This document shows positions 42,556 to 63,622 of a DNA stretch of 64,000 bases, piece after piece. A model generated the notes under the pieces. It had not been told where the DNA came from, did not search any database, and saw only the letters and a program-made list of their open reading frames with translations. Both the position numbers and the translations under genes were made by a program. The stretch is from Loktanella atrilutea (GTDB lineage Bacteria; Pseudomonadota; Alphaproteobacteria; Rhodobacterales; Rhodobacteraceae), in contig NZ_FQUE01000002.1 in the NCBI RefSeq assembly GCF_900128995.1, positions 186,001 through 250,000 of the forward strand, given 5' to 3'. Position 1 is the first letter of the stretch. Every line of letters begins with the position of its first letter.

Positions 42556-42804
42556 GTGGTCTCCTGTCTGGATTTGTGCCGCGTCGGATGCGGCTGCGGC
42601 GTGTAAATGCGCCTGATTGCCCGGATTTTCAAGTGCTAAAGAGGCGTGCCTTTAAAAGCCTTGTGGCGGCAGGACAAGAAGAAAAGGCGGAAAGGGCGAA
42701 AACCAAAGGCAGGTTTAGTAATCACGGATCGGTGAACCGATGTCGGAACGGTATCGGCCCCCGGCCCGTTGGCCCGGCACAACAGACCCCAACCGGAGAG
42801 TTCA

Positions 42805-49214: not shown

Positions 49215-51782
49215 TCAGTTGTTGGTCAACAGATCCTTGAAGATGTCGCGCAGCGAGGCGAGGGTGTAGGGCTTTGAAAGTACCGGGGCGTCGGCGATGT
49301 CGTCGGGACGCGGGATGCCTTCGCCGTAGCCGGTCGCGAAAACGAAGGGGATGTTGCGTTTCGAGAGCGCCTGCGCCACCGGAATGCTGGTTCCGTCACC
49401 CAGATTGACGTCGAGCAGGGCAAAGTCCGGCGGGTTCCGTTCGATCGCGCGCAGGGCGTCCGCGGCGGAGGATGACGTGGTGACCGAACTGGCGCCGAGC
49501 TCCATCAGCATGTCCTCGGCATCGAGGGCGATGAGCATGTTGTCCTCGACCAGCAGCGCCTGCCCCGAGAGGGCGGCGGATGTCCGCGGCTGGACGGCTT
49601 CGGTTAAAGCGGGGGCAGTCACAGCGGGCGGCGCGCCCAGAGAGACGGAGGCCGCCGGCAGGACGAAACGTGCCTGCACCCCGGTCAGCGCGTAGGTTAT
49701 CCTCGCCTCGCCCTTCAGTTCGTAAGGGATGGAGCGTTCGATGATCGTCGTGCCGAAGCCGCGACGGCTGGGTGCCTGCACGGCCGGACCGCCATGTTCG
49801 CGCCAGTCGATGACCAGCCGGTCAAGTGTATCGAGATGCCAGTCGATGGTCACATACCCGGAGGTGTCCGACAGGGCGCCGTATTTCGCCGCGTTCGTCA
49901 CCAGTTCATGCAGCACGAGTGCAAGGGTGGAAAAGGCCTGCGGTTCGAGCAGGATCGCCGGACCGGAGGCCCGCATCCGCGTCACCTGATCGTTGAGATA
50001 GGCCACCGCCTCCAGCCGGATCAGTTCCGACAGGGAACCGGGGCCCCAGTTGTTCGTCGTGACCTGATCGTGCGCCCGTGCGAGGGCCTGAATCCGGCCC
50101 CCGATGACGGTGGCGAAATCCTCGACCGTTCCGGCGCGCGACTGCGACTGGGTAACGAGGCCGCGGATCAGGCCGAGAATGTTGCGGACCCGATGATTGA
50201 GTTCCGCGATCAGCAATTCCTGCCGATCCTGTGCCGACTGACGGTCGCGGTCGCTTTCGTCCTTCATGCGCAGGATGACCTCGAGCAGCGTCACGCGCAG
50301 GGATTCCGCGATGCTGATCTCCGTGCTCTTCCAAGGGATGGACTGGCCCCGCACCGTGTCCTGCCAGGCGGCAAAACTTTTGCGGGGGGTCAGCCGCGTG
50401 CCGTTGGGGCCTACGGACACGGGCTTGTCCGGATTGCCGGCCCATGTGACGGACCTCGCGAATTCACGACGGAAGAAGACCAGATAGTCGCGCGGCAGCC
50501 GCGAGATGGGGATGGCGAGGGCACCGGCCACGCGGTCGCTGTAGTCTGCCGCAGGCGGGTGAAAGGCAGCAAGCTCCTCTGTCGCATAGATCTTGCCGGC
50601 GGGGGCCTGATTGAGGTGACGCACGAGGCTGGTGAATTCCTCCATGCTGGGGGTTTTGCCGTGCAGTTCTACCTGCCCGTCGATCCAGACCCCGACACCA
50701 TCCGCCATCACGAGGTCCGACAGCTGGTCGATCTGGCTGAGGATGGCATCGACGGTGGAACCATTGGCGGCAACCGCACGCATCAGACCGTCGTGCAGCA
50801 ACTGCGCCTTGTCGCGATAGGATTCGGCGTCGTCGCGCTGGCGCGATTCCAGCAGATAGGAAAACACCTGCCCGAACAGCTCTGCCGCCGTGCGGCGTTC
50901 CAGCGAGATGCGCCGCGGTTCCATGTGGTGACAGGCGAAGAGACCCCAGAGCCTGCCGTTCACAATGATCGAGATCGACAGCGACGCCCTGACACCCATA
51001 TTCGTCAGATATTCAAGATGGATCGGCGACACCGCGCGCAATACGCTGAGCGACAGGTCGAGCGGCGCTCCGGCAGGGTCGCGTGGCGGGACGATCCGGG
51101 AACCGGGCTCTGTCGTATCCCAGATCAGGCGCAGGGCATTGCGCAGGTAGAGGGCGCGGGCCTGCCGGGGGATATCGGATGCGGGGTATTTCAGGCCGAG
51201 ATAGCGGTCCAGTCCGCCGGCGACGACTTCGGCGACGACCTCGCCGGCGCCGTCACGGTCGAACTGGTAGACCATGACGCGATCGAAGCCGGTCAGCAGT
51301 CGCACCTGACGCGCCGCTTCGCGCAGCAGGCCGTCGATGCCGGCGGTCGCCTGAAGCCGGCCGATCATCGTCTTGACAGCCGCGGCGGCACGGGTCTCGT
51401 CACGTTCCGACGGTTCGGCCTCGATGACGATCAGGTGGCCGGACTGGTGCATCGCGATGTCAAAGTTGCCCTGCCCGGACACCAGAGGGACGCCGAATGT
51501 ACGCTCTACCGAGTCCGGCCCGCGCAGACCCTGTGACAGACCGCGCAGCCTGTGGATGACGTCCCGGTCGAACACGGCGTCCAGCGACGACCCCAGCAGG
51601 GTCTCTGTCGCGATGCCGAGGGTGTCGGCGGCGTTTTCGGACACACGCGACACGATCCAGTCCGTCGACACGGCGATCAGGAACCCGAAGGATTGCACGG
51701 CACCCAGCAGGTGGATCGGCTCTCGATCGCAGGATGTCAGATCGACATCGTCGTCCGGAGAGATCATGCTGTCATTCGTCAT
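49215..51782 (-). CDS. bphP: Bacteriophytochrome HWE histidine kinase with receiver domain
   Basis: An 855-residue red/far-red photoreceptor. Domain order: PAS with biliverdin-binding Cys18; GAF with the PASDIP box (200-205) and chromophore-pocket H255 and H285; PHY with tongue motif PRKSF (467-471); an HWE kinase with phospho-acceptor H530 (ELNHRVRN), N-box HELVTNAAKYG and W660-x-E662; and a receiver domain (741-855) with phospho-acceptor D791, T817 and K837. A fused receiver with no output domain implies phosphotransfer to a separate partner. Its ATG overlaps the haem oxygenase stop, so chromophore and receptor are co-expressed. Confidence 0.95.
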   Translation of the reverse strand: MTNDSMISPDDDVDLTSCDREPIHLLGAVQSFGFLIAVSTDWIVSRVSENAADTLGIATETLLGSSLDAVFDRDVIHRLRGLSQGLRGPDSVERTFGVPLVSGQGNFDIAMHQSGHLIVIEAEPSERDETRAAAAVKTMIGRLQATAGIDGLLREAARQVRLLTGFDRVMVYQFDRDGAGEVVAEVVAGGLDRYLGLKYPASDIPRQARALYLRNALRLIWDTTEPGSRIVPPRDPAGAPLDLSLSVLRAVSPIHLEYLTNMGVRASLSISIIVNGRLWGLFACHHMEPRRISLERRTAAELFGQVFSYLLESRQRDDAESYRDKAQLLHDGLMRAVAANGSTVDAILSQIDQLSDLVMADGVGVWIDGQVELHGKTPSMEEFTSLVRHLNQAPAGKIYATEELAAFHPPAADYSDRVAGALAIPISRLPRDYLVFFRREFARSVTWAGNPDKPVSVGPNGTRLTPRKSFAAWQDTVRGQSIPWKSTEISIAESLRVTLLEVILRMKDESDRDRQSAQDRQELLIAELNHRVRNILGLIRGLVTQSQSRAGTVEDFATVIGGRIQALARAHDQVTTNNWGPGSLSELIRLEAVAYLNDQVTRMRASGPAILLEPQAFSTLALVLHELVTNAAKYGALSDTSGYVTIDWHLDTLDRLVIDWREHGGPAVQAPSRRGFGTTIIERSIPYELKGEARITYALTGVQARFVLPAASVSLGAPPAVTAPALTEAVQPRTSAALSGQALLVEDNMLIALDAEDMLMELGASSVTTSSSAADALRAIERNPPDFALLDVNLGDGTSIPVAQALSKRNIPFVFATGYGEGIPRPDDIADAPVLSKPYTLASLRDIFKDLLTNN

Positions 51783-52369
51783 TGTGACGATCCTTCGGTC
51801 TGGCAGGGCATCAAGGTGGTTGCGGCATCCAGGAAGATGTCGAAAGCTGTCAGTGCACCGGCTTTTGCCATGATGAAATCCGTTTCACTGGTAACGTGGG
51901 TTTCCAGCAGATCGAGGAAATCGGGCCATAGGGGCTGATCCTGACCGTGCCGGAGGTAGCGGAGGTTGCGGCTGACCCGCGGATCGGAGCTGGCCGATGC
52001 GCGGCCCAGCAGGATGCGCGCACCCAGGCGGGAGCCTTCGAGGACATAGAGGGCGCCCAATGCCTCCGGGACGGACTTGGGCAACCACTGCCTGACCGGC
52101 CCGGCGGCGCGCTCGCCCAGGGCGGACAGGTCGGCATCCAGACAGTCCAGGCGACGCGCGGCTGGCCAGTTCGGGTAGATCGCCCCGATGCCGAAGGCGT
52201 CGAGAGCGATCTCCACCTGGCTGATCCCGCGGTGAGAGATCATCAGGAAGGCCGTGTAGTCCGTGGCAGAAGTCAAATCCAGCCTGTCCATACAGGTGTC
52301 GAGGCGGCGATGGGATGTCGCCGTCGCATCGCGCAGGAACCACCTGATGTCGTCCAAGGATTTTACCAT
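51779..52369 (-). CDS. bphO: Biliverdin-producing haem oxygenase
   Basis: A 196-residue haem oxygenase that opens haem to biliverdin, the chromophore of the phytochrome encoded immediately downstream. The proximal haem ligand is probably H20 (ATSHRRLD), and the distal helix ALYVLEGSRLGARIL (106-120) matches the Gly-containing distal helix of the family. The stop lies in the ATGA overlap with bphP. The promoter should be in the 126 bases before 52495. Confidence 0.92.
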   Translation of the reverse strand: MVKSLDDIRWFLRDATATSHRRLDTCMDRLDLTSATDYTAFLMISHRGISQVEIALDAFGIGAIYPNWPAARRLDCLDADLSALGERAAGPVRQWLPKSVPEALGALYVLEGSRLGARILLGRASASSDPRVSRNLRYLRHGQDQPLWPDFLDLLETHVTSETDFIMAKAGALTAFDIFLDAATTLMPCQTEGSSQ

Positions 52370-52495: not shown

Positions 52496-53440
52496 TCAAT
52501 GCGCAACACCGCAAGTCGAGGTCATGTCCAGTGCCGCTTCGAGTGCCCGGATGTGCGGCAACAGATCGCTTGCGCGTAGCCGATCCTGTGGCGTTACGAG
52601 CGGGGGCCACGGGCCCAGCAGGCCGCTGTCGCGTGCGGCGATCAGGCGCTCTGCCGGTGGCAGCGCATCGTCGATCAGGTAGTCGGTCCGGTCAGCCCGC
52701 GCGCGCAACGCCGCCGACATGCCGTCGCGGGCACGACCGTCCAGTCGGCAGGATGCGGTGACGGTCACATCGCCGGCGTGGAGGACAGCATGACCGGTGG
52801 CCTTCAGGCGCCGGACCAGATCGCGATCCTCTCCGGTTGCCAGATCTGCGAAACCACCGACCGCCTGCAGGGCGTCCCTGCGTACCGCAAGGCTGGCACC
52901 CGCCGCGTGTGCATGTTCCCCGTCGAGGCCAAGGGGGCCGGGCCTGTGACGCCGGTAGAAGGCGGTCACGAGCGCCTCGTACCGCCCTTCCATCTCGGCG
53001 AGCGGAATATCCATGTCTTTCAGGACAAAGAGTTCTTCGGGCATCGGATTCACCCGCCCGCAGACGGCCGCAACCCGCGTCAGATGATGCCGGTTGCGGG
53101 CGATCCAGTCCGCGCCGGTCAGGCAGTCCGCATCGGTGAACAGCAGGGCATCCGCCGCGGGCCAGGATCGCAGGGCATGCTCGCATCCCAGACGGCGTGC
53201 GGTGCCCACCCCCTCTTCGCTGCCGAGCGTGACGTTGACGACATCCAGCCGCATTCCGGCGGCGGTGGCAGCGGCACGGGCGGCTGCCTCGGTCGCGTCG
53301 ATGCAGTTGTTCGCCACGACGACGACGGCCAGATCCAAGGCCGATTGAGCCGCCAGCGCCGCAAGGCAGGCGGGAATGCGATCCGCCTCGTTACGGGCGG
53401 GGATGACGACGACGGTTCTGACACGGGAATCGGGTGTCAC
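52496..53440 (-). CDS. Glycosyltransferase family 2
   Basis: A 314-residue soluble GT-A enzyme. The N-terminal nucleotide-sugar site VVVIPARNEADRI, the metal-binding TDADC at about residues 101-105, and a downstream GEDRDLVRRL acidic motif are present. Acceptor and sugar are unknown. The GTG start at 53440 overlaps the methyltransferase stop (GTGA). It is the last gene of a seven-gene leftward operon (59231 to 52496). Confidence 0.88.
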   Translation of the reverse strand: MTPDSRVRTVVVIPARNEADRIPACLAALAAQSALDLAVVVVANNCIDATEAAARAAATAAGMRLDVVNVTLGSEEGVGTARRLGCEHALRSWPAADALLFTDADCLTGADWIARNRHHLTRVAAVCGRVNPMPEELFVLKDMDIPLAEMEGRYEALVTAFYRRHRPGPLGLDGEHAHAAGASLAVRRDALQAVGGFADLATGEDRDLVRRLKATGHAVLHAGDVTVTASCRLDGRARDGMSAALRARADRTDYLIDDALPPAERLIAARDSGLLGPWPPLVTPQDRLRASDLLPHIRALEAALDMTSTCGVAH

Positions 53441-53994
53441 GCTGCGGCGGGTCCGACGATGCCGCGGTCGATGCGGTATCTGCCCGTATCGACCACCGGC
53501 GAAAGAGGCACCACCTTGTCGAATATGGCCAGCGTGTCGAGGCCCTGCAGGGCCTGCGCCGTGTCGCCGAGATAGGTCACGCAGACGACCTCGACCCCCT
53601 GCGCAGTCTCCAGCACCTCCTTTGCCAATTGCCGGATCATTGCTGGTGTCAGGAAATAAAGAACCTCAGACAGCACCATCAGGTCGGCGTCGGCTAGCGG
53701 CAGGTCGCAGGGATAGGTCCCCTGTTGGAAATGAGCGTCCGGTACGGCCCTGCGGGCGGCCTCTACGGCGCGCGCGATGGCGTCGATGCCGGTGTAGCGG
53801 TCGCAGAGCGGGGCGAGATGCCGCGCAAGGGCACCGTTTCCGCAGCCGATTTCCAGCCCGAAGCGGTAACGAACCCTGCTCAGGGCGGCACGAGTCGCCT
53901 TGAACTTGTCCTGCTCGTAGGGACTGGTTGCGAAATCCCACGGATCATCGGTCCGGGCGTACAGCGTTTCCAGATGGTCGAGGACGGAGGACAT
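53437..53994 (-). CDS. NodS-like SAM-dependent methyltransferase
   Basis: A 185-residue class I methyltransferase. Motif I GLEIGCGNGALARHLA, acidic GID (YTGIDAI) and the post-motif LSEVLYFLTP resemble the NodS group, whose rhizobial member N-methylates the de-N-acetylated end of Nod-factor backbones. Here it follows a PIG-L deacetylase gene with one shared base (53994), so methylation of a freed amino group on a sugar is a reasonable but unproven role. Confidence 0.85.
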   Translation of the reverse strand: MSSVLDHLETLYARTDDPWDFATSPYEQDKFKATRAALSRVRYRFGLEIGCGNGALARHLAPLCDRYTGIDAIARAVEAARRAVPDAHFQQGTYPCDLPLADADLMVLSEVLYFLTPAMIRQLAKEVLETAQGVEVVCVTYLGDTAQALQGLDTLAIFDKVVPLSPVVDTGRYRIDRGIVGPAAA

Positions 53995-54710
53995 CAGGCG
54001 GCGCGCCAGAAGATTTCCGGCTCTTTCGCGAAGGCGTCGATGAAGTCGAGCGGCAGGCTGAAGCCCTTGGGATCATCCTCGATCACCAGTCCGCGCTGTG
54101 TGCGGTGCGCCGCGATGGCAAGCCTCTTGCGTGCCTGCCACGTACGCGAGTCGAGCGCCACGGGATGGCGCGCGGCCACATGGTCCAGCAGATCGGGATC
54201 GTCCCAACGGCTCCATACCGGATAGCTGAAGAGCGCAAGGTCCGGCATCGCCTGCGCCACGCGCCGCGCGATCCGCGCGGTGGAGCGGTGATCCTCGTGG
54301 TGATCCTCTGGCGCCGGGGCGAAGAGGTGCCGCGCGCCGCAGCCCCGACAGATCGCCACGATATCGGCTACGATCCGGTCCGTATCCTGCGTTCCAAGCC
54401 AACCGTCGGGATGTCCCAGCCATGTCATGTCCGTCGGCATTCCGCCCAGACGCACGATGGCGTGCGACAATTCCTGCCAGCGCATGGCGGCCAGCCGTTC
54501 GGCGGGCCAATCGGTGGAACCGGGATGCGATCCGCTGCCGTCGGTCATGCAGACGACATGGGCGCCATGCGTGTCGAAGGCGTGGGCCAGCAGCGCGCCG
54601 CAGCCAAGACTTTCGTCGTCCGGGTGCGGGGCAAGAACGACGATCGGTGCGCCACCGGTCAGGCTTTCAGCAGAAACCCGCGGCAGATGCGTGGTCAGAT
54701 GTAGTCCCAC
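53994..54710 (-). CDS. PIG-L/LmbE family deacetylase, GTG start
   Basis: A 238-residue zinc deacetylase of the PIG-L (LmbE) family, which remove acetyl from N-acetylglucosamine-type substrates. The metal motif PHPDDE (residues 28-33) and H138-x-x-H141 (HHEDH) are intact. The GTG at 54710 is chosen because AGGAGG lies seven bases before it, within the end of the upstream gene; the overlap with that gene is 16 bases. The frame open to 55130 is antisense-like and has no homology. Confidence 0.88.
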   Translation of the reverse strand: MGLHLTTHLPRVSAESLTGGAPIVVLAPHPDDESLGCGALLAHAFDTHGAHVVCMTDGSGSHPGSTDWPAERLAAMRWQELSHAIVRLGGMPTDMTWLGHPDGWLGTQDTDRIVADIVAICRGCGARHLFAPAPEDHHEDHRSTARIARRVAQAMPDLALFSYPVWSRWDDPDLLDHVAARHPVALDSRTWQARKRLAIAAHRTQRGLVIEDDPKGFSLPLDFIDAFAKEPEIFWRAA

Positions 54711-55795
54711 AGGGTATCCTCCTCGTTGAAACAGGCCTCGCCCACGCGGGTCTGGAAAGCGTCGCGTGCCGCTTGCCGCAGGTAGACCGACAGGTCGCGC
54801 GCCTTGCGTCCGGTGGCGGAATCGTCCGCGAAATGCGCGAGCCCGACGGATTGTTCCACGGCACGGATTGCATCGAGGGCGACCTCTTCCGTCGCCAACC
54901 GCGCGGCGGCGGACAGGATCGGCGCGCGTCGCGCCGCATCTGGCGCAGAAGGCAACGCTGCCTGGGCCGCACGGGTCACGAGAGCGGAGGCAGCCATTGC
55001 GCCGATCGTCGCGGAGGACAGGCGCGCCATCTGTGCCGCGGCCGCCAGCCGGTCGCGGGCTCGCAGATGGGCGGCGGCAGACTCCAGCAGGCCAAGGGCG
55101 GCACCGACCTGCAGGGCGGCGATACGCCAAACGCCGCCGACGAAATGCGGCTCCGTCACGTAGTCCCCTGCCCCGCCAAGCCAGATCACGTCGCGCAAGG
55201 GGGTGCCGTCGAAGTCGTAGCGCCCCGAGTCCGTGGAGCGCATGCCCGACATCTGCCAGGCGTTTGCGTCTGCACGCGCGGTGTCGTTCACCGCGACCAG
55301 CGCCAGCCGCACGCGAGGCCCGGAAGAGACGGTGATGACCGCATGGGTGACAGTGCCGAGGCCAGAGGCAAAAAGCTTGTGCCCCATCAGCATATCATGG
55401 GGCCCGGGTGCGACCGGCTCTGGCCCGTCGGCACCCCAGACGCCGAGGATCGCGCCGTCGGCGACGAGCGCGCGCACGCGCGCATCGGCCTGACTGTCGC
55501 CATGGACGTTGGCGAGGTAGAGGGCGTTCATGTGCCCTTCCCACAGCCGGCCGACGGGCAGGTTCGCCGCGCCGACGCGTTGCAGACGGCGCGCGGTCAG
55601 GACGGGATCCGCGGTGCCGTCGTCGTCCAGCCAACCGGCATCGCGCAGATGGCGCAGGGATCCGGCGATGGCGGTCGTCCCCGCCTCCTCCGCCGCGGCG
55701 GAGGCGGCGAGGGTCCGGGCCAGACGGGTCGTCGGATCCGGCGAGGTGGGGGCGGCGTCGGCGGAACCGGGACGGGGATCTCTCTCGATCAGCAT
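54695..55795 (-). CDS. Acyl-CoA dehydrogenase-like protein
   Basis: A 366-residue protein with the overall layout of acyl-CoA dehydrogenases: helical N-terminal domain, central beta domain (HKLFASGLGTVTHAVI), and C-terminal four-helix bundle (AQMARLSSATIGAMAASALV, then VGLAHFADDSA). The usual catalytic glutamate and flavin-stacking residues are not clearly recognisable, so it may act on a sugar-linked or carrier-linked substrate or be non-catalytic. It is the fourth gene of the glycosyl cluster and is tightly packed on both sides. Confidence 0.75.
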   Translation of the reverse strand: MLIERDPRPGSADAAPTSPDPTTRLARTLAASAAAEEAGTTAIAGSLRHLRDAGWLDDDGTADPVLTARRLQRVGAANLPVGRLWEGHMNALYLANVHGDSQADARVRALVADGAILGVWGADGPEPVAPGPHDMLMGHKLFASGLGTVTHAVITVSSGPRVRLALVAVNDTARADANAWQMSGMRSTDSGRYDFDGTPLRDVIWLGGAGDYVTEPHFVGGVWRIAALQVGAALGLLESAAAHLRARDRLAAAAQMARLSSATIGAMAASALVTRAAQAALPSAPDAARRAPILSAAARLATEEVALDAIRAVEQSVGLAHFADDSATGRKARDLSVYLRQAARDAFQTRVGEACFNEEDTLWDYI

Positions 55796-56824
55796 TCAGG
55801 CGACCCTTTCCATGTTGCGGGCAGCGCGCGACATCAGTCGATCACGCCAGCGACGGCAGACGGCATCCAGCGTGAAGTCGGGATTGCCGCAGACCTCCGG
55901 GCGTTGACTGCGCCACGCCAGAAGTCGCGCCAGAATTGCCGTATCGTCCGCAGCATCCAGCAACTGCCCGGGCGTCGCGACCACTTCGGCGTTGGCGCCG
56001 AGGCGGTCGTGCGCCAGCACCGGCAGGCCAACAGACTGCGCCTCTGCCATGACGAGGCCGAAGGTCTCTGCAAAGGTGGTCTGTGGATAGAACAGGCAGA
56101 GCGATCGGCGCATCTGCGCAATCAGTTCCGTATGCGGCAACGGCCCGAGGAAGGTTACGCCGTCGGGCACCGGTCCGGTGTCCCACGCAAGATACCCGGG
56201 ATCGGCGACGGCGAGGGTCAGGGTCGGGATGGCGTCGCGCGCCGTGCGGAAGCGGGCGAAGACCTGCGCCAGTCCCTTGTGCGGCGAACTGGCAAAGAGC
56301 AGGCGGTCGGGGTCATGGCGCGTGCCGTCGGGCCGTAGCCCCGGCGCAATGGGATTGTGAATATGATCGATGGACAACCCCGGCCCAGCCGACAGGAAAC
56401 GGCGCAGCGACCTGGCGTGGCTGGCGGAGACGCAGATGACTTCCACGCCTGCCTCTGTCAGCGCCCGCGCCATGGGGCGGTTGTGGCGACCCGGATGGTT
56501 GTGCAGCCAGAGAACGATGCGCGCCGCCGGCTGGGTCTTTCGCAATTTGCAGGCGACCTTCCACGCATTGATGACGATCAGCGTCGGGGTGGCGTCGGCT
56601 GTGAAGACGTCAGCGAGCGGTCGCATCACGCCTGCCTTGGTCGCGTCCCGTTCAGTGCGTCCGCGCTGGTAGTGGGTGATCGCCATGTCGCGCGACAGCA
56701 CGGTCATCACGCGCAAGACCGTGGCCTCTGTCCCGCCAAGCCCGCCGGCCAGCAGGGTCGCGGGGGTGTAGCCGCGGGCGCAGCAGGGGTCGACGACGGC
56801 GATATCCGGGACTGCCGCCATCAT
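55796..56824 (-). CDS. Glycosyltransferase, GT4-like (group 1)
   Basis: A 342-residue GT-B glycosyltransferase. The C-terminal domain shows the donor-binding signature LFYPQTTFAETFGLVMAEAQ, with the E-x7-E pair, and LLFASSPHKGLAQV. It has no membrane segments and probably works at the cytoplasmic face. The start ATG at 56824 overlaps the preceding GT2 stop (ATGA); a second ATG follows directly at 56821. Confidence 0.87.
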   Translation of the reverse strand: MMAAVPDIAVVDPCCARGYTPATLLAGGLGGTEATVLRVMTVLSRDMAITHYQRGRTERDATKAGVMRPLADVFTADATPTLIVINAWKVACKLRKTQPAARIVLWLHNHPGRHNRPMARALTEAGVEVICVSASHARSLRRFLSAGPGLSIDHIHNPIAPGLRPDGTRHDPDRLLFASSPHKGLAQVFARFRTARDAIPTLTLAVADPGYLAWDTGPVPDGVTFLGPLPHTELIAQMRRSLCLFYPQTTFAETFGLVMAEAQSVGLPVLAHDRLGANAEVVATPGQLLDAADDTAILARLLAWRSQRPEVCGNPDFTLDAVCRRWRDRLMSRAARNMERVA

Positions 56825-57777
56825 TCGGCGGCCACCGGACGTGTGACATCGACGTGCAGGCAGCGCGCGACGGCGGCACGGGTCGCGTCGGTCATCGGCA
56901 GGTCGCGCCGGCGCAGGTGCGCGGGGTTGCTGACGAAGGCAAGCGCAAGGTCGGGCATGTCGATCGGAACCGGATCGACGCGGCCTTCGGTCCGCCACTG
57001 GCGCACCTTGTCCCAGACCATCGCGCGGTCGGCCTTGCGCCGTGCGCTGTCATAGTCCGTGTCCTGCGACTGAGTGAGGCTGTCTGGCGTCTCTATCTTG
57101 GTCAGTAGCAGTTCCTGCACGATCCAGATGATTTCTCCATTGAACATCAGCCGGTTGCGGAATTCGCGATCCTCTTCGATGCAGGGCGCGAAGCCGCCGT
57201 TGCGGGCCAGCAGTTCCTGCCGGAACAGGCCGGAGTTGATGTGCGTCCACTCTCCCGGCACCTGCCCGCCCATCTGCATGTTCGGGAACACGTCGTCGAA
57301 AAGCGACAGGTCGCGGCGGATCGGGACGCGTCGCCCGTCCGGCAGGACCAGCTCGTGCTGCACCAGCGCGGCACCGACCTGCAGGATGCTGCCGGGCTCT
57401 TGCCCGACCATGCGCCAGTTCAGGCACTCATGCGCCCCGATGGCGGGCTGGGACAGGATGCGCGCCTGATGCAGGACCTTGTCGCGATGCGGGATGTCGT
57501 CGGAATCGTGGAACGTCACTGCATCCCCGTCCGTCAGCAGAAGGCCCGCATTCTTGGCCAGCGCCGTGCCGACGTTGTGCGCGAGCCGGATGTAGGTGAA
57601 GCGCGGATCATCGAAATGCCGGGCCAGACGCCCCTGCGTATCGTCGGTGCTGCCGTCATCGATGACGGTGACGCGGGTATTCCACCACGACTGGTCGAGT
57701 GCGGCGCGGACGGCGGTGTCGATCATGTGAGCGCGGTTGTGGGTCGGGATGATGATGTCGACGGACAGGTCGGTCAT
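56821..57777 (-). CDS. Glycosyltransferase family 2
   Basis: A 318-residue GT-A enzyme with VDIIIPTHNRAHMID at the N-terminus, VTVIDDGSTDDT, the DSDD metal motif (FHDSDDIPH), and CIEEDREFRNRL as the catalytic acid region. Sugar and acceptor are unknown. It lies two bases downstream of the membrane glycosyltransferase and overlaps the following GT4-like gene by four bases. Confidence 0.88.
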   Translation of the reverse strand: MTDLSVDIIIPTHNRAHMIDTAVRAALDQSWWNTRVTVIDDGSTDDTQGRLARHFDDPRFTYIRLAHNVGTALAKNAGLLLTDGDAVTFHDSDDIPHRDKVLHQARILSQPAIGAHECLNWRMVGQEPGSILQVGAALVQHELVLPDGRRVPIRRDLSLFDDVFPNMQMGGQVPGEWTHINSGLFRQELLARNGGFAPCIEEDREFRNRLMFNGEIIWIVQELLLTKIETPDSLTQSQDTDYDSARRKADRAMVWDKVRQWRTEGRVDPVPIDMPDLALAFVSNPAHLRRRDLPMTDATRAAVARCLHVDVTRPVAAE

Positions 57778-57779
57778 GG

Positions 57780-59231
57780 TCAGGCTCCGATCGGTTGCAT
57801 GGTGACGTGGCGTCGGTAGCGGTCCAGCACCCGAGCCAATGCCAGTCCCGCAGGCAGCGGGACCAGAAGCGCGAGCACGGCTCCGGTCACCAGCACGCTG
57901 TGGGTCAGGGTCAGCGGCACGGCGGCCCCGGCGGTGGCGAAGAGGATGAGGCTCGCACCCGAAGCGCCCGTCGGTCGCGCCACGCCGGCCTTGTCGGTGA
58001 CGGCAAAGGCAAGCGGTCGGCCACACACGGCGCTGACGGTCGCACAGGCCGCGACAGGCGCAAGGGCGGCGCGATGACAGATGGCGGCGAAGCGGATCCG
58101 TCCGGGCATAGGTTCGGGCCGCCCCTGCCCCAGAAGCCGCAGGACAATGTCGAACACCGTAAGCCATACGGAAAGGCTCGCCAGCTGGATCAGCGTCTCT
58201 CCGCCACCGCCGGTCGCCAGACTGCAGAGCAGCGCGGTGACGGGAAGCAGGGACAGGGTCAGCCAAGCGGTCAGTTGTGAGAGGATCGCGGCACGCTGAC
58301 GGACGGTCATGCCGACACGCCACGGCAGGAGTGCAGCGGCATGGGCAATCAGCGTTTGCAGATTGCCGCTGGCCCAACGGTGGCGCTGACGCTCCAGCCC
58401 GCGCAGGGAGAACGGCAGAAGGCCGCGCCCGACGATCTGATTGATGAAACGACCGGTGAAACCGGCCCGGCAAAGCCGCACGCCAAGGTCCGCATCCTCC
58501 GTGACGGTGCGGCCCGACCAGCCGCCGACCGCCCGCAGGGCGGGCACCGAGATGACGCAGAGCGTGCCGGTCAGCAGCACGGCCTCTGCCACGTCGGCCA
58601 TTTGCGCGCTTCCTTGGAAATATTCCGCGAGTTCCGCATCGACGCCATCGGCCACGCCGGCGCAGCCGGCATAGGCCTGAGGGAATTGCACGTAGTCGGC
58701 GCCGGTCAGGGACAGTGCCGCGGCGGCACTGGTCAGAAAGTCCGGATCGACGGCATAATCGGCATCCACGGTCACCACATGGGTCGCGTCGGTGCGGGTA
58801 TGGTCCAAAGCGATGTTCAGGGCGCCGGCCTTGGCGCCCGCCACGCCGGTCCGATGCAGGAAGCGGACCCGGTCGCCAAGCCGGTCACATTCATCGCGCA
58901 CCGGCTGCCAGACGGCCGAATCCTCGGTGTTGTTATCGATCACGACAATCTCGACCGCGGAGGCCGGCCAGTCCTGCCGCGCAAGCGCGCGAACGGTTGC
59001 AATCACCAGCGACGGGGGTTCGTTGTGCGTCGCGACGTGGACCGAAAAGACTGGCGTTGCCTGCGGGATCGGCCGCAGCGGCACGCGCAGATCCTGACCG
59101 TTCGCCCAATACCGCATGACCAGCCCCGCAACCTGGAGGAAGATTAATGCTGCGCAAAGCGCCGCGACAAGGCCGGGCAGGACGAGGACGCACAGACAGA
59201 TGACCGCCAGAAAGATCGGCAGGACGAACAT
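57780..59231 (-). CDS. Membrane-bound processive-type glycosyltransferase (GT2)
   Basis: A 483-residue inner-membrane enzyme with two N-terminal helices, a cytosolic GT-A domain and four to five C-terminal helices, as in cellulose, hyaluronan and chitin-oligosaccharide (NodC) synthases. The D, D-x-D, TED and Q-x-x-R-W residues of processive enzymes appear as VIDNNTED, TVDADYAV, VTEDADLGVRL and QRHRWASG. It is the first gene of the seven-gene operon. The ATG at 59231 (MFVLPIFL) is preferred over that at 59246; the promoter should lie in 59232-59416. Confidence 0.88.
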   Translation of the reverse strand: MFVLPIFLAVICLCVLVLPGLVAALCAALIFLQVAGLVMRYWANGQDLRVPLRPIPQATPVFSVHVATHNEPPSLVIATVRALARQDWPASAVEIVVIDNNTEDSAVWQPVRDECDRLGDRVRFLHRTGVAGAKAGALNIALDHTRTDATHVVTVDADYAVDPDFLTSAAAALSLTGADYVQFPQAYAGCAGVADGVDAELAEYFQGSAQMADVAEAVLLTGTLCVISVPALRAVGGWSGRTVTEDADLGVRLCRAGFTGRFINQIVGRGLLPFSLRGLERQRHRWASGNLQTLIAHAAALLPWRVGMTVRQRAAILSQLTAWLTLSLLPVTALLCSLATGGGGETLIQLASLSVWLTVFDIVLRLLGQGRPEPMPGRIRFAAICHRAALAPVAACATVSAVCGRPLAFAVTDKAGVARPTGASGASLILFATAGAAVPLTLTHSVLVTGAVLALLVPLPAGLALARVLDRYRRHVTMQPIGA

Positions 59232-59416
59232 GACGTGTCTCCACACAGGGCATGGGTTTTCGAGGCTTCGAAAACAAAATGGTTCACGCCTAGCTAGATA
59301 ACGCCGGTGCGGGTCACGAGTTCCCCCGAGGTCGCCGCCGGCCCCTCACCGCGCGCACGGCACAGGTTGTCACGAGAGGAGGAAGGACGCTTCAAACTGC
59401 ATTGACGGAGGGGGAG

Positions 59417-60154
59417 TCAGTTTTCCGGAAACCAGGAGGTATCCATGTCGGCGTAGCGATTATTGAAGTCGGTCATGTCCGCCAGGTCGTCTTCCCGCAG
59501 TATCCGCAGGCGATCCCCGATCCGCTGGATATAGCCGTCCTCTTCCATCTTGATGAGGGTGCGACTGATGTAGACGTTCGTCAGACCCAGGTAATCGCCG
59601 ATCTGGCTTTGCGTCAGCGGCAGGCGGATCGTGTCTGTCATCCGGCGGTTCGTGATGCGCAGGCGCGCGATCAGGTCCAGCACCATGTAGGCCACCCGCT
59701 CCTGCGCCTTCATGCGTCCCATCGCGCGCAGCAGATCGATGAAGACGACCTGATCGCGCAGCCCGATCGACAGCAGCAGCGCCGACAGGCGAGGCGATTC
59801 GCGCAGAATGACGTCCAGCGAAGACTTTGGAAACGGACAGAGCGTGACGGCCTCTGACGTTCGCAAGGTCGTTGTCATGTGTTTGAGGGCGACGTCGGGA
59901 AAGCCGATGATGTCGCCGGGATGATGTATCTTGACGATCTGCCGACGGCCGTCCGGAAGATCGGTATAGCTGAACAGCCAGCCGCGCTTGACCACGTAAA
60001 GGTCCCTTGCCGCATCGCCGTTCTGATAGATCTCGACGCCTTCCTCGAAGTCCCGCTCCGCCTTTTCGAGGCTTGCAAGCTGTTCCCGGTGGGTCTCGTC
60101 CAAGGTGATGTAATGCGACAGTTTCGTCACGAGACAGCTTGATTGATCGTCCAT
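59417..60154 (-). CDS. Crp/Fnr family transcriptional regulator
   Basis: A 245-residue regulator with an N-terminal cyclic-nucleotide-like effector domain (about 20-140) and a C-terminal winged helix (LTQSQIGDYLGLTNVYISRT, 178-197). The N-terminal cysteine pattern of oxygen-sensing Fnr is not present (only C14 in SSCLVTK and one in TLCPF), so it is not a classical Fe-S Fnr. It is divergent from ku-ligD, with a 16-bp palindrome in the shared gap. ATG at 60154 has GGAAGG upstream; GTG at 60175 is an alternative. Confidence 0.9.
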   Translation of the reverse strand: MDDQSSCLVTKLSHYITLDETHREQLASLEKAERDFEEGVEIYQNGDAARDLYVVKRGWLFSYTDLPDGRRQIVKIHHPGDIIGFPDVALKHMTTTLRTSEAVTLCPFPKSSLDVILRESPRLSALLLSIGLRDQVVFIDLLRAMGRMKAQERVAYMVLDLIARLRITNRRMTDTIRLPLTQSQIGDYLGLTNVYISRTLIKMEEDGYIQRIGDRLRILREDDLADMTDFNNRYADMDTSWFPEN

Positions 60155-60202
60155 GGAACCTTCCTGACCGGACACGACATTCGCTGGCTTATCAGCCGGA
60201 AG

Positions 60203-60218: not shown

Positions 60219-60330
60219 TGGGATATGGATGACCAGCGTCATCTGCTTTGGCACCAACCTGTCGATACAGTTTGCGGAACCCTTTGCCCCCGACAGCGTT
60301 CGATCAGATGACTGGTCGAAGGGGATCCTG

Positions 60331-61156: not shown

Positions 61157-63622
61157 GTGGCCCGCGGGCCGGATCCCCTTGCCGCCTATAATGCCAAGCG
61201 CGATTTTGCCCTGACGGAAGAGCCGCGCGGCAAAAGCGGCGCGGCCAGCACGACGGGTCTTCGGTTCGTCGTCCAGAAACATGACGCCCGTCGGTTGCAC
61301 TACGACTTTCGCCTCGAATGGCAGGGCGTGCTGCTTAGCTGGGCGGTGACCCGCGGCCCCAGCCCGGACACGCGAGAGAAGCGGCTTGCGGTCCGGACGG
61401 AGGACCACCCGCTGTCTTATCGTGATTTCGAGGGCACCATCCCGGCCAAGGCCTATGGCGGCGGGACCGTGATGCTGTGGGACGAAGGTCTTTGGCTGCC
61501 GGAGAACGATCCGGCGCAGGGCCTGAAGGACGGCAAGCTCGGGTTCACCCTGCAAGGGCAGCGGATGACCGGCAGCTGGGCCCTGGTCCGGATGAAGAAC
61601 AAGGGCGAGAAACGCGAGAACTGGCTGCTGATAAAGCACCGCGACAGTGCTGCCTGTGACGATCCGGACGCCTTGACGGATGGCTTCGACACCTCCGTCA
61701 CCACCGGTCGTACGATGGCGCAGATCGCGTCGGGCGCAAAGGCGAAACCGCAACGCAAACCTTCCGCGACGCAGGGCGGCAAGCGTCCCGCCTTTCGGAA
61801 ACCACAGCTTGCGACGCTCGTCAGCGACGCCCCGGGCGGCGACGACTGGATCTTCGAGACGAAGTTCGACGGCTACCGCTGCCTGGCGGCGCTGGGCAAG
61901 GGCGGTCCCCGCCTGTGGACCCGCAACGGTCACGACTGGACCGATCGGTTCCAGTCCCTGACGGCTGCTTTCGGCGCCTTGCCCTGCAAATCCGCGCTGA
62001 TCGACGGCGAAGTCATGGCCGCCCGGATCAAGGGATCGGCCTTCTCGTCCCTGCAGGCGGCGCTGGCAGAGGGGCGACCGCTGGTCTTCTATGCCTTCGA
62101 CCTGCTGTCGCTGGACGGCAAGGATTTGACCGACGCACCGTTGCTGGATCGCAAGGCGCGTCTGGCCAAGCTGCTTGACGGCTTGCCGGAGGACGGACCG
62201 CTGCGGGTCAGCACGCATATTCCCGGCGACGGCGCCCAAATCCTTGCCCATGCCTGCAAGACCGGGGCGGAGGGGATCATCGCCAAGCGCGCCGGGGCGC
62301 CCTATCGCGGGCGACGCACCACCGACTGGCTGAAGGTGAAGTGCACGAAGCGGCAGGAATTCGTGATCGGCGGGTATTCTCCTTCGGACAAGCCGGGCCG
62401 GCCCTTTGCATCGCTGCTGGTCGGAGAGATGGGGCCGGAGGGTCTTCGGTATCGCGGGCGCGTGGGCACTGGCTTTGCCGAGGGCGACTTCGATGAGCTG
62501 CAGGCGGCCCTCAGGACGCGCAAGACCAGCCCGTTCATCGACGTGCCCAGCGACATTGCCGCCGGTGCGGTCTGGGTGACACCGGGGACGGTCATCGAGG
62601 TCGATTTCACCGAATTGACGGCGGACGGGCACATCCGTCACGGCAGCTATCTGGGATTAAGGAAGGACAAGACGGCGAAGGAGGTCACGCTGGAGGTGCC
62701 GCGCAAGGCACCGGCAACAAGGTCGGACAGGGTGACGGTGGCCGGTATCGCGATCACGCATCCCGATCGCCTGATCTTTCCCGGCACGACGATTACCAAG
62801 GTCGATGTCGCGCGTTACTACGACCGCGCCAGCGCGCGGCTGATGGACATTGCCGGCAAGCGACCGTTGTCCCTGCTGCGGCTGCCGGAGGGGCAGGGCG
62901 GCGAAAGCTTCTTTCAGAAACACGCCGGCGCCGGGTTTCCCGCAGCCTTGCACCGGGTCGAGATCACGGACAGCAGCGGCGGCGCCACGACTGCCTTCGA
63001 TGCCACGAAGGCCGCGGCCTTCGTGGCGGCGGCGCAGATGGGGACGGTCGAGGTCCACATCTGGGGCGCACGGACGGACCGGCTCGACCGCCCGGACCGG
63101 CTGGTCTTCGACCTTGACCCGGACGAAGGTCTTGGCTGGTCGGATGTGCGCCGCGCCGCTTTCGACCTGCGCGACCTGCTTGCGCAGCTGGACCTTGCCA
63201 CGGTGCCCGTCGTGACCGGCGGCAAGGGCATTCACGTCTGTGTCTGCCTGCGGCGCACGCAGGGCTGGGACACGGTGAAGCTTTTCACCAAGACCGTCGC
63301 CTACATGATGGCCGAGCGGGAACCGAAGCGGTTCACCGCCGTCATGTCGAAGTCGAAGCGCAAGGGGCGGATCTTTATCGACTGGCTGCGCAACGAGCGG
63401 GGGGCGACCGCCATCGCGCCTTACGCGATCCGCGCGCGAACCGGCGGGCCGGTCGCGGTGCCGGTCACCTGGGACGCGTTAGACGAGATCGCCGGGGCGG
63501 ATGCCTTCGACATCGATGCCGCCATCGCCCACCTGTCGGCCCCCTGCCCCTATATGACGGCCCTGGCGCAGCCGCAGACCCTGACGGCACGGACGCTGGA
63601 TGCGCTATCGTCGCTGATGTAG
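61157..63622 (+). CDS. ligD: ATP-dependent DNA ligase LigD (phosphoesterase-ligase-polymerase)
   Basis: An 821-residue three-domain NHEJ enzyme. Residues 25-190 are the 3'-phosphoesterase domain (FVVQKHDARRLHYDFRLEW). Residues 225-525 are the ligase domain with adenylated lysine K236 in ETKFDGYRC, followed by an OB fold. Residues 545-815 are the primase-polymerase domain (LIFPGTTITKVDVARYYD, FDLDPDEGL with the catalytic Asp pair). The GTG start at 61157, one base after the ku stop, implies tight co-translation with Ku. Confidence 0.96.
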   Translation: MARGPDPLAAYNAKRDFALTEEPRGKSGAASTTGLRFVVQKHDARRLHYDFRLEWQGVLLSWAVTRGPSPDTREKRLAVRTEDHPLSYRDFEGTIPAKAYGGGTVMLWDEGLWLPENDPAQGLKDGKLGFTLQGQRMTGSWALVRMKNKGEKRENWLLIKHRDSAACDDPDALTDGFDTSVTTGRTMAQIASGAKAKPQRKPSATQGGKRPAFRKPQLATLVSDAPGGDDWIFETKFDGYRCLAALGKGGPRLWTRNGHDWTDRFQSLTAAFGALPCKSALIDGEVMAARIKGSAFSSLQAALAEGRPLVFYAFDLLSLDGKDLTDAPLLDRKARLAKLLDGLPEDGPLRVSTHIPGDGAQILAHACKTGAEGIIAKRAGAPYRGRRTTDWLKVKCTKRQEFVIGGYSPSDKPGRPFASLLVGEMGPEGLRYRGRVGTGFAEGDFDELQAALRTRKTSPFIDVPSDIAAGAVWVTPGTVIEVDFTELTADGHIRHGSYLGLRKDKTAKEVTLEVPRKAPATRSDRVTVAGIAITHPDRLIFPGTTITKVDVARYYDRASARLMDIAGKRPLSLLRLPEGQGGESFFQKHAGAGFPAALHRVEITDSSGGATTAFDATKAAAFVAAAQMGTVEVHIWGARTDRLDRPDRLVFDLDPDEGLGWSDVRRAAFDLRDLLAQLDLATVPVVTGGKGIHVCVCLRRTQGWDTVKLFTKTVAYMMAEREPKRFTAVMSKSKRKGRIFIDWLRNERGATAIAPYAIRARTGGPVAVPVTWDALDEIAGADAFDIDAAIAHLSAPCPYMTALAQPQTLTARTLDALSSLM

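Follow-up and report, generated by a model that had tools for sequence, protein, structure and literature searches.

A conserved bacterial gene core for a probable modified amino sugar, preceded in Loktanella atrilutea by a general-stress promoter motif

Organization of the operon

We analysed a stretch of 64,000 nucleotides from Loktanella atrilutea (Alphaproteobacteria, Rhodobacterales; assembly GCF_900128995.1, contig NZ_FQUE01000002.1, positions 186,001-250,000), referred to below as the window, whose numbering is used throughout. The window contains a compact operon of seven minus-strand open reading frames (ORFs), spanning positions 52496-59246, which encode glycosyltransferases, a deacetylase, a methyltransferase and a protein with the fold of acyl-CoA dehydrogenases (ACADs). 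An earlier reading of this DNA, made from the sequence alone, had predicted seven leftward genes with overlaps or gaps of at most 2 bases. Both points were confirmed: with the start codons chosen here, the successive junctions, in the order of transcription, are +2, -4, 0, -16, -1 and -4 bases. The upstream end, previously set at 59231, coincides with an in-frame ATG of the first gene (mGT2), but the longest ORF includes this codon and starts with GTG at 59246. The genes, their assignment to a core or an add-on part (see below) and the motif that precedes them are as follows:

57780-59246, minus strand: mGT2, membrane-bound cellulose-synthase-like glycosyltransferase of family 2 (GT2), add-on (Pfam/NCBIfam matches, motifs; alternative ATG at 59231)
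56821-57777, minus strand: GT2b, soluble GT2, add-on (PF00535)
55796-56824, minus strand: GT4-like glycosyltransferase, add-on (PF00534)
54695-55795, minus strand: ACAD-fold flavoprotein, core (predicted fold, profile, Foldseek; flavin presumed from the fold)
53994-54710, minus strand: PIG-L deacetylase, core (PF02585, HPDDE and HEDH motifs; GTG start chosen)
53437-53994, minus strand: NodS-like S-adenosylmethionine (SAM)-dependent methyltransferase, core (PF05401)
52496-53440, minus strand: GT2a, soluble GT-A glycosyltransferase, core (PF00535, DAD motif; GTG start)
59300-59324, minus strand: EcfG-type motif GGAAC-N16-CGTT upstream of the operon (pattern search)

Conservation and distribution of the core

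The operon was compared with 80 related loci, which are the best of at least 495 confirmed relatives of the ACAD-like protein and not a random or unbiased sample. In these loci the flavoprotein gene is accompanied by those of the methyltransferase (80/80), the PIG-L deacetylase (79/80) and GT2a (77/80 by tblastn, 78/80 by ORF search), a recurrence that places the gene order far beyond chance. The sequence-only reading would have counted a lack of such co-occurrence in other genomes as a refutation, and this objection fails. These four genes constitute the core of the operon. The remaining three form an add-on part, which is far rarer (mGT2 in 26, GT2b in 27 and GT4 in 28 of the 80 loci, some of which are cut by contig ends). 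The operon is therefore composed of two parts, as is also evident from their arrangement in other strains: they are divergently oriented in Notoacmeibacter (locus L099), and those of Salipiger bermudensis (L141) are separated by a catalase gene of the same orientation, which follows GT4 at a distance of 18 bases and shares 4 or 37 bases with GT2a, according to the start codon assumed. Loktanella fryxellensis (L081), the closest relative with a name among the matches listed (71% for the flavoprotein), carries the core together with the GT4 and Crp genes; neither mGT2 nor GT2b was found at this locus.

Within the order, a strong match to the ACAD-like protein was obtained in 10 of 149 genomes; five of the 15 genomes with any match gave weak ones (E 8e-6 to 8e-4), which were taken as other proteins and excluded. 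GT2b was detected at E 1e-30 in five of the 149 genomes, all of which also hold the ACAD-like gene. One genome (L052, L058) carries further ACAD/PIG-L copies, apparently incomplete.

The flavoprotein profile (E <=1e-20) matched 34 of 398 Pseudomonadota genomes. Of its 21 matches outside Alphaproteobacteria, 20 were retrieved; these are presumably of beta- and gammaproteobacteria. All 20 loci have the methyltransferase close to the flavoprotein, 18 have PIG-L and 17 GT2a, counts that are lower bounds since overlapping ORFs share one label. The flavoprotein was also matched in 46 of 72,556 plasmid records, and plasmids carrying the core are those of Sulfitobacter, Paracoccus, Limimaricola, Deinococcus (Deinococcus sp. 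NW-56 and D. gobiensis), Komagataeibacter, Jiella, Sphingomonas, Bradyrhizobium, Acinetobacter, Kitasatospora and Nostoc. A Cupriavidus plasmid has the core with the PIG-L gene a few kb away. D. radiodurans has genes for the flavoprotein, PIG-L and the methyltransferase, the last two separated by a DEAD/DEAH helicase gene (L213, 4231-6843); GT2a was not found in the fetched stretch. Judged by these matches, the core is old and widespread across several bacterial phyla. Its genes are annotated piecemeal in many bacteria, as acyl-CoA dehydrogenase, PIG-L deacetylase, SAM methyltransferase or glycosyltransferase. No product is named for the core in the open literature searched, which does not mean that none is in print.

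The upstream motif and general-stress control

The 170 bases that precede the operon contain the motif GGAAC-N16-CGTT (59324-59300), with its first base 78 bases ahead of the GTG start of mGT2 and 93 bases ahead of the alternative ATG. According to a study of Sphingomonas melonis (PMC6599016), this is the promoter type of EcfG, the general-stress sigma factor of Alphaproteobacteria. The genome of the strain encodes PhyR (350 bits; cut-off 240) and, in a neighbouring gene on the opposite strand, a sigma factor (325 bits; cut-off 270). The region between these two genes contains two divergent copies of the motif, as in an autoregulated system, and served as a positive control. Two features of an EcfG regulon, the motif upstream of the operon and the PhyR and sigma factor genes in the same genome, are present.

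The regions upstream of 78 of the 80 related loci were examined for the same motif (two were dropped, as the available stretch was too short). A relaxed form was found in 31 of them; the opposite strand gave 3, the reversed motif none, and 200 shuffles gave 1.06 on average and 4 at most. For the strict form the count was 10 of the 78, and the shuffles averaged 0.2. When the set was thinned at 75% identity, the counts were 22/56 (relaxed) and 7/56 (strict). In 14 of the 18 loci that start with mGT2, the motif lies 104-121 bases before the start codon. These sequence data lead us to infer that EcfG-type control operates in some, at least, of the alphaproteobacterial carriers of the core.

Genes in the neighbourhood of the core

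The neighbourhood was defined as the DNA within about 10 kb of the core in the 80 loci. As controls we used 40 stretches, each 20 kb long and set at fixed positions. They come from ten genomes in which the flavoprotein was matched, half of them of the class and half from outside it; they are not a random draw and are not from the genomes of the 80 loci. An HPII-like catalase (under the HPII cut-off) was present in 32/80 loci (34/80 in a separate count) and in none of the 40 controls. The following were likewise absent from the controls: (i) DUF892 (22/80), DUF421 (21/80) and a Zn-dependent alcohol dehydrogenase (18/80), (ii) SRPBCC (12/80), MgtC (10/80) and Na/H antiporter (9/80) proteins, and (iii) Ku and LigD, the proteins of non-homologous end joining (NHEJ) (8/80 each). 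Crp regulators were found in 17/80 loci versus 2/40 controls. Short-chain dehydrogenases/reductases (15/80 versus 4/40) and ABC transporters (16/80 versus 8/40) were rejected as linked neighbours, as they are not enriched.

Several of these genes have counterparts under EcfG control in S. melonis. That study (PMC6599016) reports two catalases in the EcfG-dependent set, an EcfG-dependency of the upstream regions of Ku and of a Zn-dependent alcohol dehydrogenase that was confirmed with reporters (the latter gene being termed a putative indirect target), and glycosyltransferases (#3505-#3509) among the EcfG-dependent genes.

In the window, the operon is flanked on one side by a gene for a bacteriophytochrome-like HWE kinase and on the other by crp, ku and ligD genes, the second of which is itself preceded by a copy of the motif:

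59417-60175, minus strand: Crp/Fnr-family regulator, directly upstream of the operon (Pfam/NCBIfam)
60276-60300, plus strand: EcfG-type motif, 30 bases from the Ku start codon
60331-61155, plus strand: Ku (NHEJ)
61157-63622, plus strand: DNA ligase D
51779-52369, minus strand: small protein without Pfam/NCBIfam match, a putative haem oxygenase solely by its place beside the phytochrome
49215-51782, minus strand: bacteriophytochrome-like protein with an HWE histidine kinase and a C-terminal receiver-like region
42745-42770: third EcfG-type motif in the window

Copies of the Crp/Fnr regulator that are 62-80% identical precede several related operons. In Tepidamorphus (L155), relatives of the phytochrome-like kinase and of the small protein both adjoin the core. 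A search for structured RNAs in the whole 64-kb window revealed two tRNAs only. A role of the operon in phage defence was considered and rejected, PADLOC giving a single weak match (the methyltransferase).

Four features had escaped the sequence-only reading: the stress promoter motif, the surrounding stress genes, the division of the operon into two parts and, in the ACAD-like protein, the missing dehydrogenase base (see below).

The ACAD-fold flavoprotein

The ACAD-like protein has no match in Pfam or NCBIfam at E 0.001. Its AlphaFold2 model (mean pLDDT 94.5) has the acyl-CoA dehydrogenase fold, and the best rows of a VIA-align comparison reach Z 35.9, with a root-mean-square deviation of 2.5 over 332 residues. 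The protein had previously been called acyl-CoA-dehydrogenase-like. This holds for the fold but not for the catalytic site: the catalytic Glu of two annotated dehydrogenases (YEGT, FEGT) aligns with Q341, which is invariant in the family alignment, where a Glu at positions 338-345 is found in none of the 48 rows. Acyl-CoA dehydrogenases of the isovaleryl type have an alternative catalytic position; here, before R224, it is occupied by Trp in 47/48 rows. An acyl-CoA dehydrogenase function is disfavoured by the loss of the Glu, and the sequence suggests that this annotation may not describe what the protein does.

A profile built from the 48 relatives gave its best matches with flavin-dependent monooxygenases, i.e. 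DszC (1.4e-20), TdsC (1.6e-19) and MsuC (1.5e-16), versus 3.7e-13 for the best acyl-CoA dehydrogenase. In a Foldseek search TdsC was first, with MAB_4123 and DszC also among the top matches, and nitrososynthases preceded the first dehydrogenase. Two residues that align with DszC are kept, S144 in 46/48 and W180 in 47/48 rows; Ser and Trp residues of this kind have recognised roles in DszC.

In D. radiodurans (L213, 1175-3514) and D. gobiensis (L075, 8585-10933) the flavoprotein carries an additional, fused domain of ~400 residues at its N-terminus, which by eye resembles a clan-A glycosidase; the fusion does not occur in Deinococcus sp. NW-56. The matches of this domain to GH53 (E 0.014 and 0.022) and GH35 (E 0.0086) were all under the cut-off, and the search for solved relatives gave nothing better than E 0.86.

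The deacetylase, methyltransferase and glycosyltransferases

The deacetylase matches PF02585 (90.5 bits) and has HPDDE and HEDH motifs that are kept in the family alignment; the sequence-only reading had rightly placed it in a family other than that of NodB. Its only NCBIfam matches are BshB1 and BshB2 (37.8 and 37.5 bits), far under their cut-offs of 182.5 and 195.25, so that it does not qualify as BshB. Among solved structures its best match is TT1542, followed by archaeal deacetylases, of which diacetylchitobiose deacetylase is one. A plasmid-borne cluster of Rubrobacter indicoceani (L212, 5951-10602) carries a CE4 deacetylase that scores best, at 113 bits (cut-off 240), with the NodB model. 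PIG-L was not found in the 16.5 kb fetched, and the cluster lends support to the de-N-acetylation of a sugar. The same cluster has a ferredoxin-NAD reductase-like gene, under the cut-off.

The methyltransferase had been described as NodS-like. It does match the NodS family PF05401 (52.2 bits; cut-off 24), but the curated NodS model gave 58.6 bits, versus a cut-off of 300 that is passed in none of 289 genomes of the class, including that of the strain itself. A NodS query retrieved the rhizobial NodS proteins first and then this methyltransferase family (in the best 40 of 149 rows), and solved NodS is one of the two best PDB matches. We also constructed a tree from 73 sequences (one in three of the 80 loci, with additions; the midpoint root is for drawing, and the long branch calls for caution), in which the five true NodS form a clade of their own (99/99) on a branch of 1.68, and a separate clade of 62 rows (96/82) holds every row from core loci. 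By its sequence, the methyltransferase of the window is thus a relative of NodS and not NodS. An origin of NodS inside the stress core is not shown by this tree, in which NodS lies on a long branch outside the clade of the core. NodS-like methyltransferases are also found within large plasmid-encoded proteins, one of 970 residues in Mesorhizobium (L237, 4480-7392), annotated as a glycosyltransferase, and one of 1019 residues in Rhizobium (L239, 4321-7380). These large proteins and the fusion of the flavoprotein with a glycosidase-like domain suggest a sugar as the substrate.

The mGT2 protein (PF13632/PF13641) contains TED and QRHRW motifs and seven hydrophobic windows. It is, as proposed earlier, a membrane GT2 with motifs of processive enzymes, but its likeness to NodC was not borne out: the CelA model is the best match (95 bits, under its cut-off of 699.1), versus 37.5 bits for NodC (cut-off 550). 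The absence of NodA and NodB from the operon, also noted before, was verified, neither having a match at E 0.001 among the seven products, to which the search was confined. A fold search with GT2a returned general GT-A matches, many of them polysaccharide synthases, and was uninformative about donor and acceptor.

Proposed pathway and alternative explanations

We consider it probable that the seven genes form a biosynthetic operon for a modified amino sugar that is switched on by the PhyR-EcfG general stress response. In the proposed pathway, (i) GT2a would add a sugar to an acceptor, yielding a glycoside, (ii) the PIG-L enzyme would remove its N-acetyl group, exposing an amine, (iii) the NodS-like enzyme would methylate the product, probably on the same nitrogen, and (iv) the flavoprotein would oxidise it, more likely as a monooxygenase using reduced flavin and O2 than as an acyl-CoA dehydrogenase. 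The add-on enzymes (mGT2, GT2b and GT4), present in this strain and in related Rhodobacterales, may extend the product to a longer or membrane-associated glycan. Together with catalase and NHEJ repair, the compound would most likely help the cell to survive oxidative stress, drying or light. A general-stress pathway of this kind, if true, would explain a set of co-inherited orphan genes found from Rhodobacterales to Deinococcus and Nostoc, and would predict one compound that Alphaproteobacteria make only while their stress sigma factor is active. A more far-reaching version, to which we attach little likelihood, is that the core makes a stress metabolite common to several phyla, an N-methylated, de-N-acetylated amino-sugar glycoside that is N-oxidised by a flavoenzyme of the nitrososynthase/DszC type and produced under the command of EcfG together with catalase and NHEJ. 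The N-oxidised amino sugar would then be a new class of stress protectant.

Several observations weigh against the stress-induced pathway or against individual steps of it. The genome-wide pattern search gave 80 matches versus 68 for the reversed control; the motif is thus a weak predictor, and a single site proves little, the comparison of upstream regions being the stronger test. Even the relaxed motif is missing from 47 of the 78 upstream regions. Of these 47, 31 belong to loci that start with GT2a, and in seven of them (L115, L119, L128, L129, L138, L141 and L142) the mGT2 group is located further upstream on the same strand, so that the tested stretch may not be the promoter of the operon. 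Three relatives have all seven genes in a single run (L048-L050), and the strict motif precedes them in L048 alone. The promoter comparison covers alphaproteobacterial loci, and other organisms may regulate the core otherwise; in the 20 loci outside this class, catalase was near the core in two and Ku/LigD in one. With regard to the oxidation step, the profile matches to DszC and TdsC reach only the first 217 positions. The VIA-align comparison does not separate the two groups and ranks dehydrogenases first (Z 35.9-34.5, versus 34.4 for the first monooxygenase), no named monooxygenase being among its 32 best rows, and the C-terminal His of MsuC aligns, in a weak stretch, with Gln341. None of the seven genes was recognised as encoding a flavin reductase, an acyltransferase, a flippase or an exporter. 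Finally, plasmid pB of Methylobacterium FF17 (L079) is a counter-example, carrying the flavoprotein gene without the other core genes.

It is possible, although we would not call it probable, that the core makes a soluble small molecule, such as a compatible solute or a thiol/antioxidant-like glycoside comparable to mycothiol, bacillithiol or glucosylglycerate, and that the add-on glycosyltransferases decorate it. This overlaps the pathway proposed above and differs from it in the class of the product only. It agrees with the lack of a strongly hydrophobic window in the flavoprotein, PIG-L and methyltransferase (GT2a has one, of 19 residues, at residues 25-43), with BshB1/BshB2 as the sole NCBIfam matches of PIG-L, and with the presence of glucosyl-3-phosphoglycerate synthase and mannosylglycerate synthase among the many fold neighbours of GT2a. 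The surroundings of the core in the 20 loci outside Alphaproteobacteria point in the same direction: they include an alpha-amylase-family protein of 916 residues (5/20), an isoamylase-type protein (5/20) and a GT20 trehalose-phosphate synthase (3/20), and in Acinetobacter the core is flanked by otsA, otsB and a catalase gene. However, the BshB scores are far under the cut-offs, none of the seven genes was recognised as adding cysteine, GT2a has fold neighbours of the general GT-A kind, and mGT2 would better fit an exported or membrane glycan. It is rather unlikely that the operon decorates the envelope or an exopolysaccharide and that its link with stress is incidental, having arisen by transfer into stress islands. 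The patchy distribution, in 10 of 149 genomes of the order and on few plasmids, would suit such a history, but the motif upstream of the operon itself and, at 104-121 bases, in 14 of the 18 mGT2-first loci, and the catalase gene within the operon of Salipiger, speak against it.

The sequence-only reading had proposed a glycoconjugate operon with the chemistry of Nod factor. The glycoconjugate-type pathway, with its polymerase-like, deacetylase and methyltransferase genes, is supported, and the suggested succession of steps is plausible as an analogy; a family comparison with Nod factor is not, and a close tie was rejected on the basis of the model cut-offs and the separate NodS clade. In its strict form, this explanation would have mGT2 synthesise a beta-1,4-GlcNAc chain, which is then deacetylated by PIG-L, N-methylated and given acyl tailoring by the ACAD-like protein to yield a lipochitooligosaccharide. 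We regard this as very doubtful. The processive motifs of mGT2, the retrieval of the methyltransferase family by the NodS query and the NodB-like enzyme of Rubrobacter are in its favour, but mGT2 is closer to CelA than to NodC and is present in only 26 of the 80 core loci (some cut by contig ends), NodS is phylogenetically separate, neither NodA nor NodB was matched among the seven products, and the flavoprotein lacks the dehydrogenase base.

Comparison with known systems

The mycothiol (MshA/MshB) and bacillithiol (BshA/BshB) pathways combine a GT4 glycosyltransferase with a PIG-L deacetylase and are linked to oxidative stress. The operon of the window differs from them in that its proteins score far under the cut-offs of the MshA and BshB models, no cysteine ligase was recognised, and the flavoprotein and methyltransferase are additional.

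With DszC, TdsC and MsuC, and with the nitrososynthases DnmZ and KijD3, the flavoprotein shares the fold, the best profile matches, the kept Ser and Trp residues and the absence of the dehydrogenase Glu. It differs in its low identity (about 15-21%), in the invariant Gln at the place of the C-terminal His of MsuC, and in that no reductase gene was recognised in the operon.

The nodABCSU system of rhizobia has in common with the operon a processive-type GT2, a de-N-acetylation step and SAM-dependent methylation by a PF05401 enzyme. It is distinguished by NodA and NodB, which have no match in the operon, and by a methyltransferase and a glycosyltransferase whose NodS and NodC cut-offs are not reached here. 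In addition, the ACAD-fold flavoprotein is without counterpart in the nod clusters examined, and the promoter motif of the operon is of the stress type.

The core was not found described as a member of the EcfG regulon in the open literature searched, a body of text that does not extend to supplements or to most subscription papers. With the EcfG/PhyR regulon of S. melonis (PMC6599016), the operon and its relatives share the promoter motif and the co-located genes for Ku, catalase and the Zn-dependent alcohol dehydrogenase.

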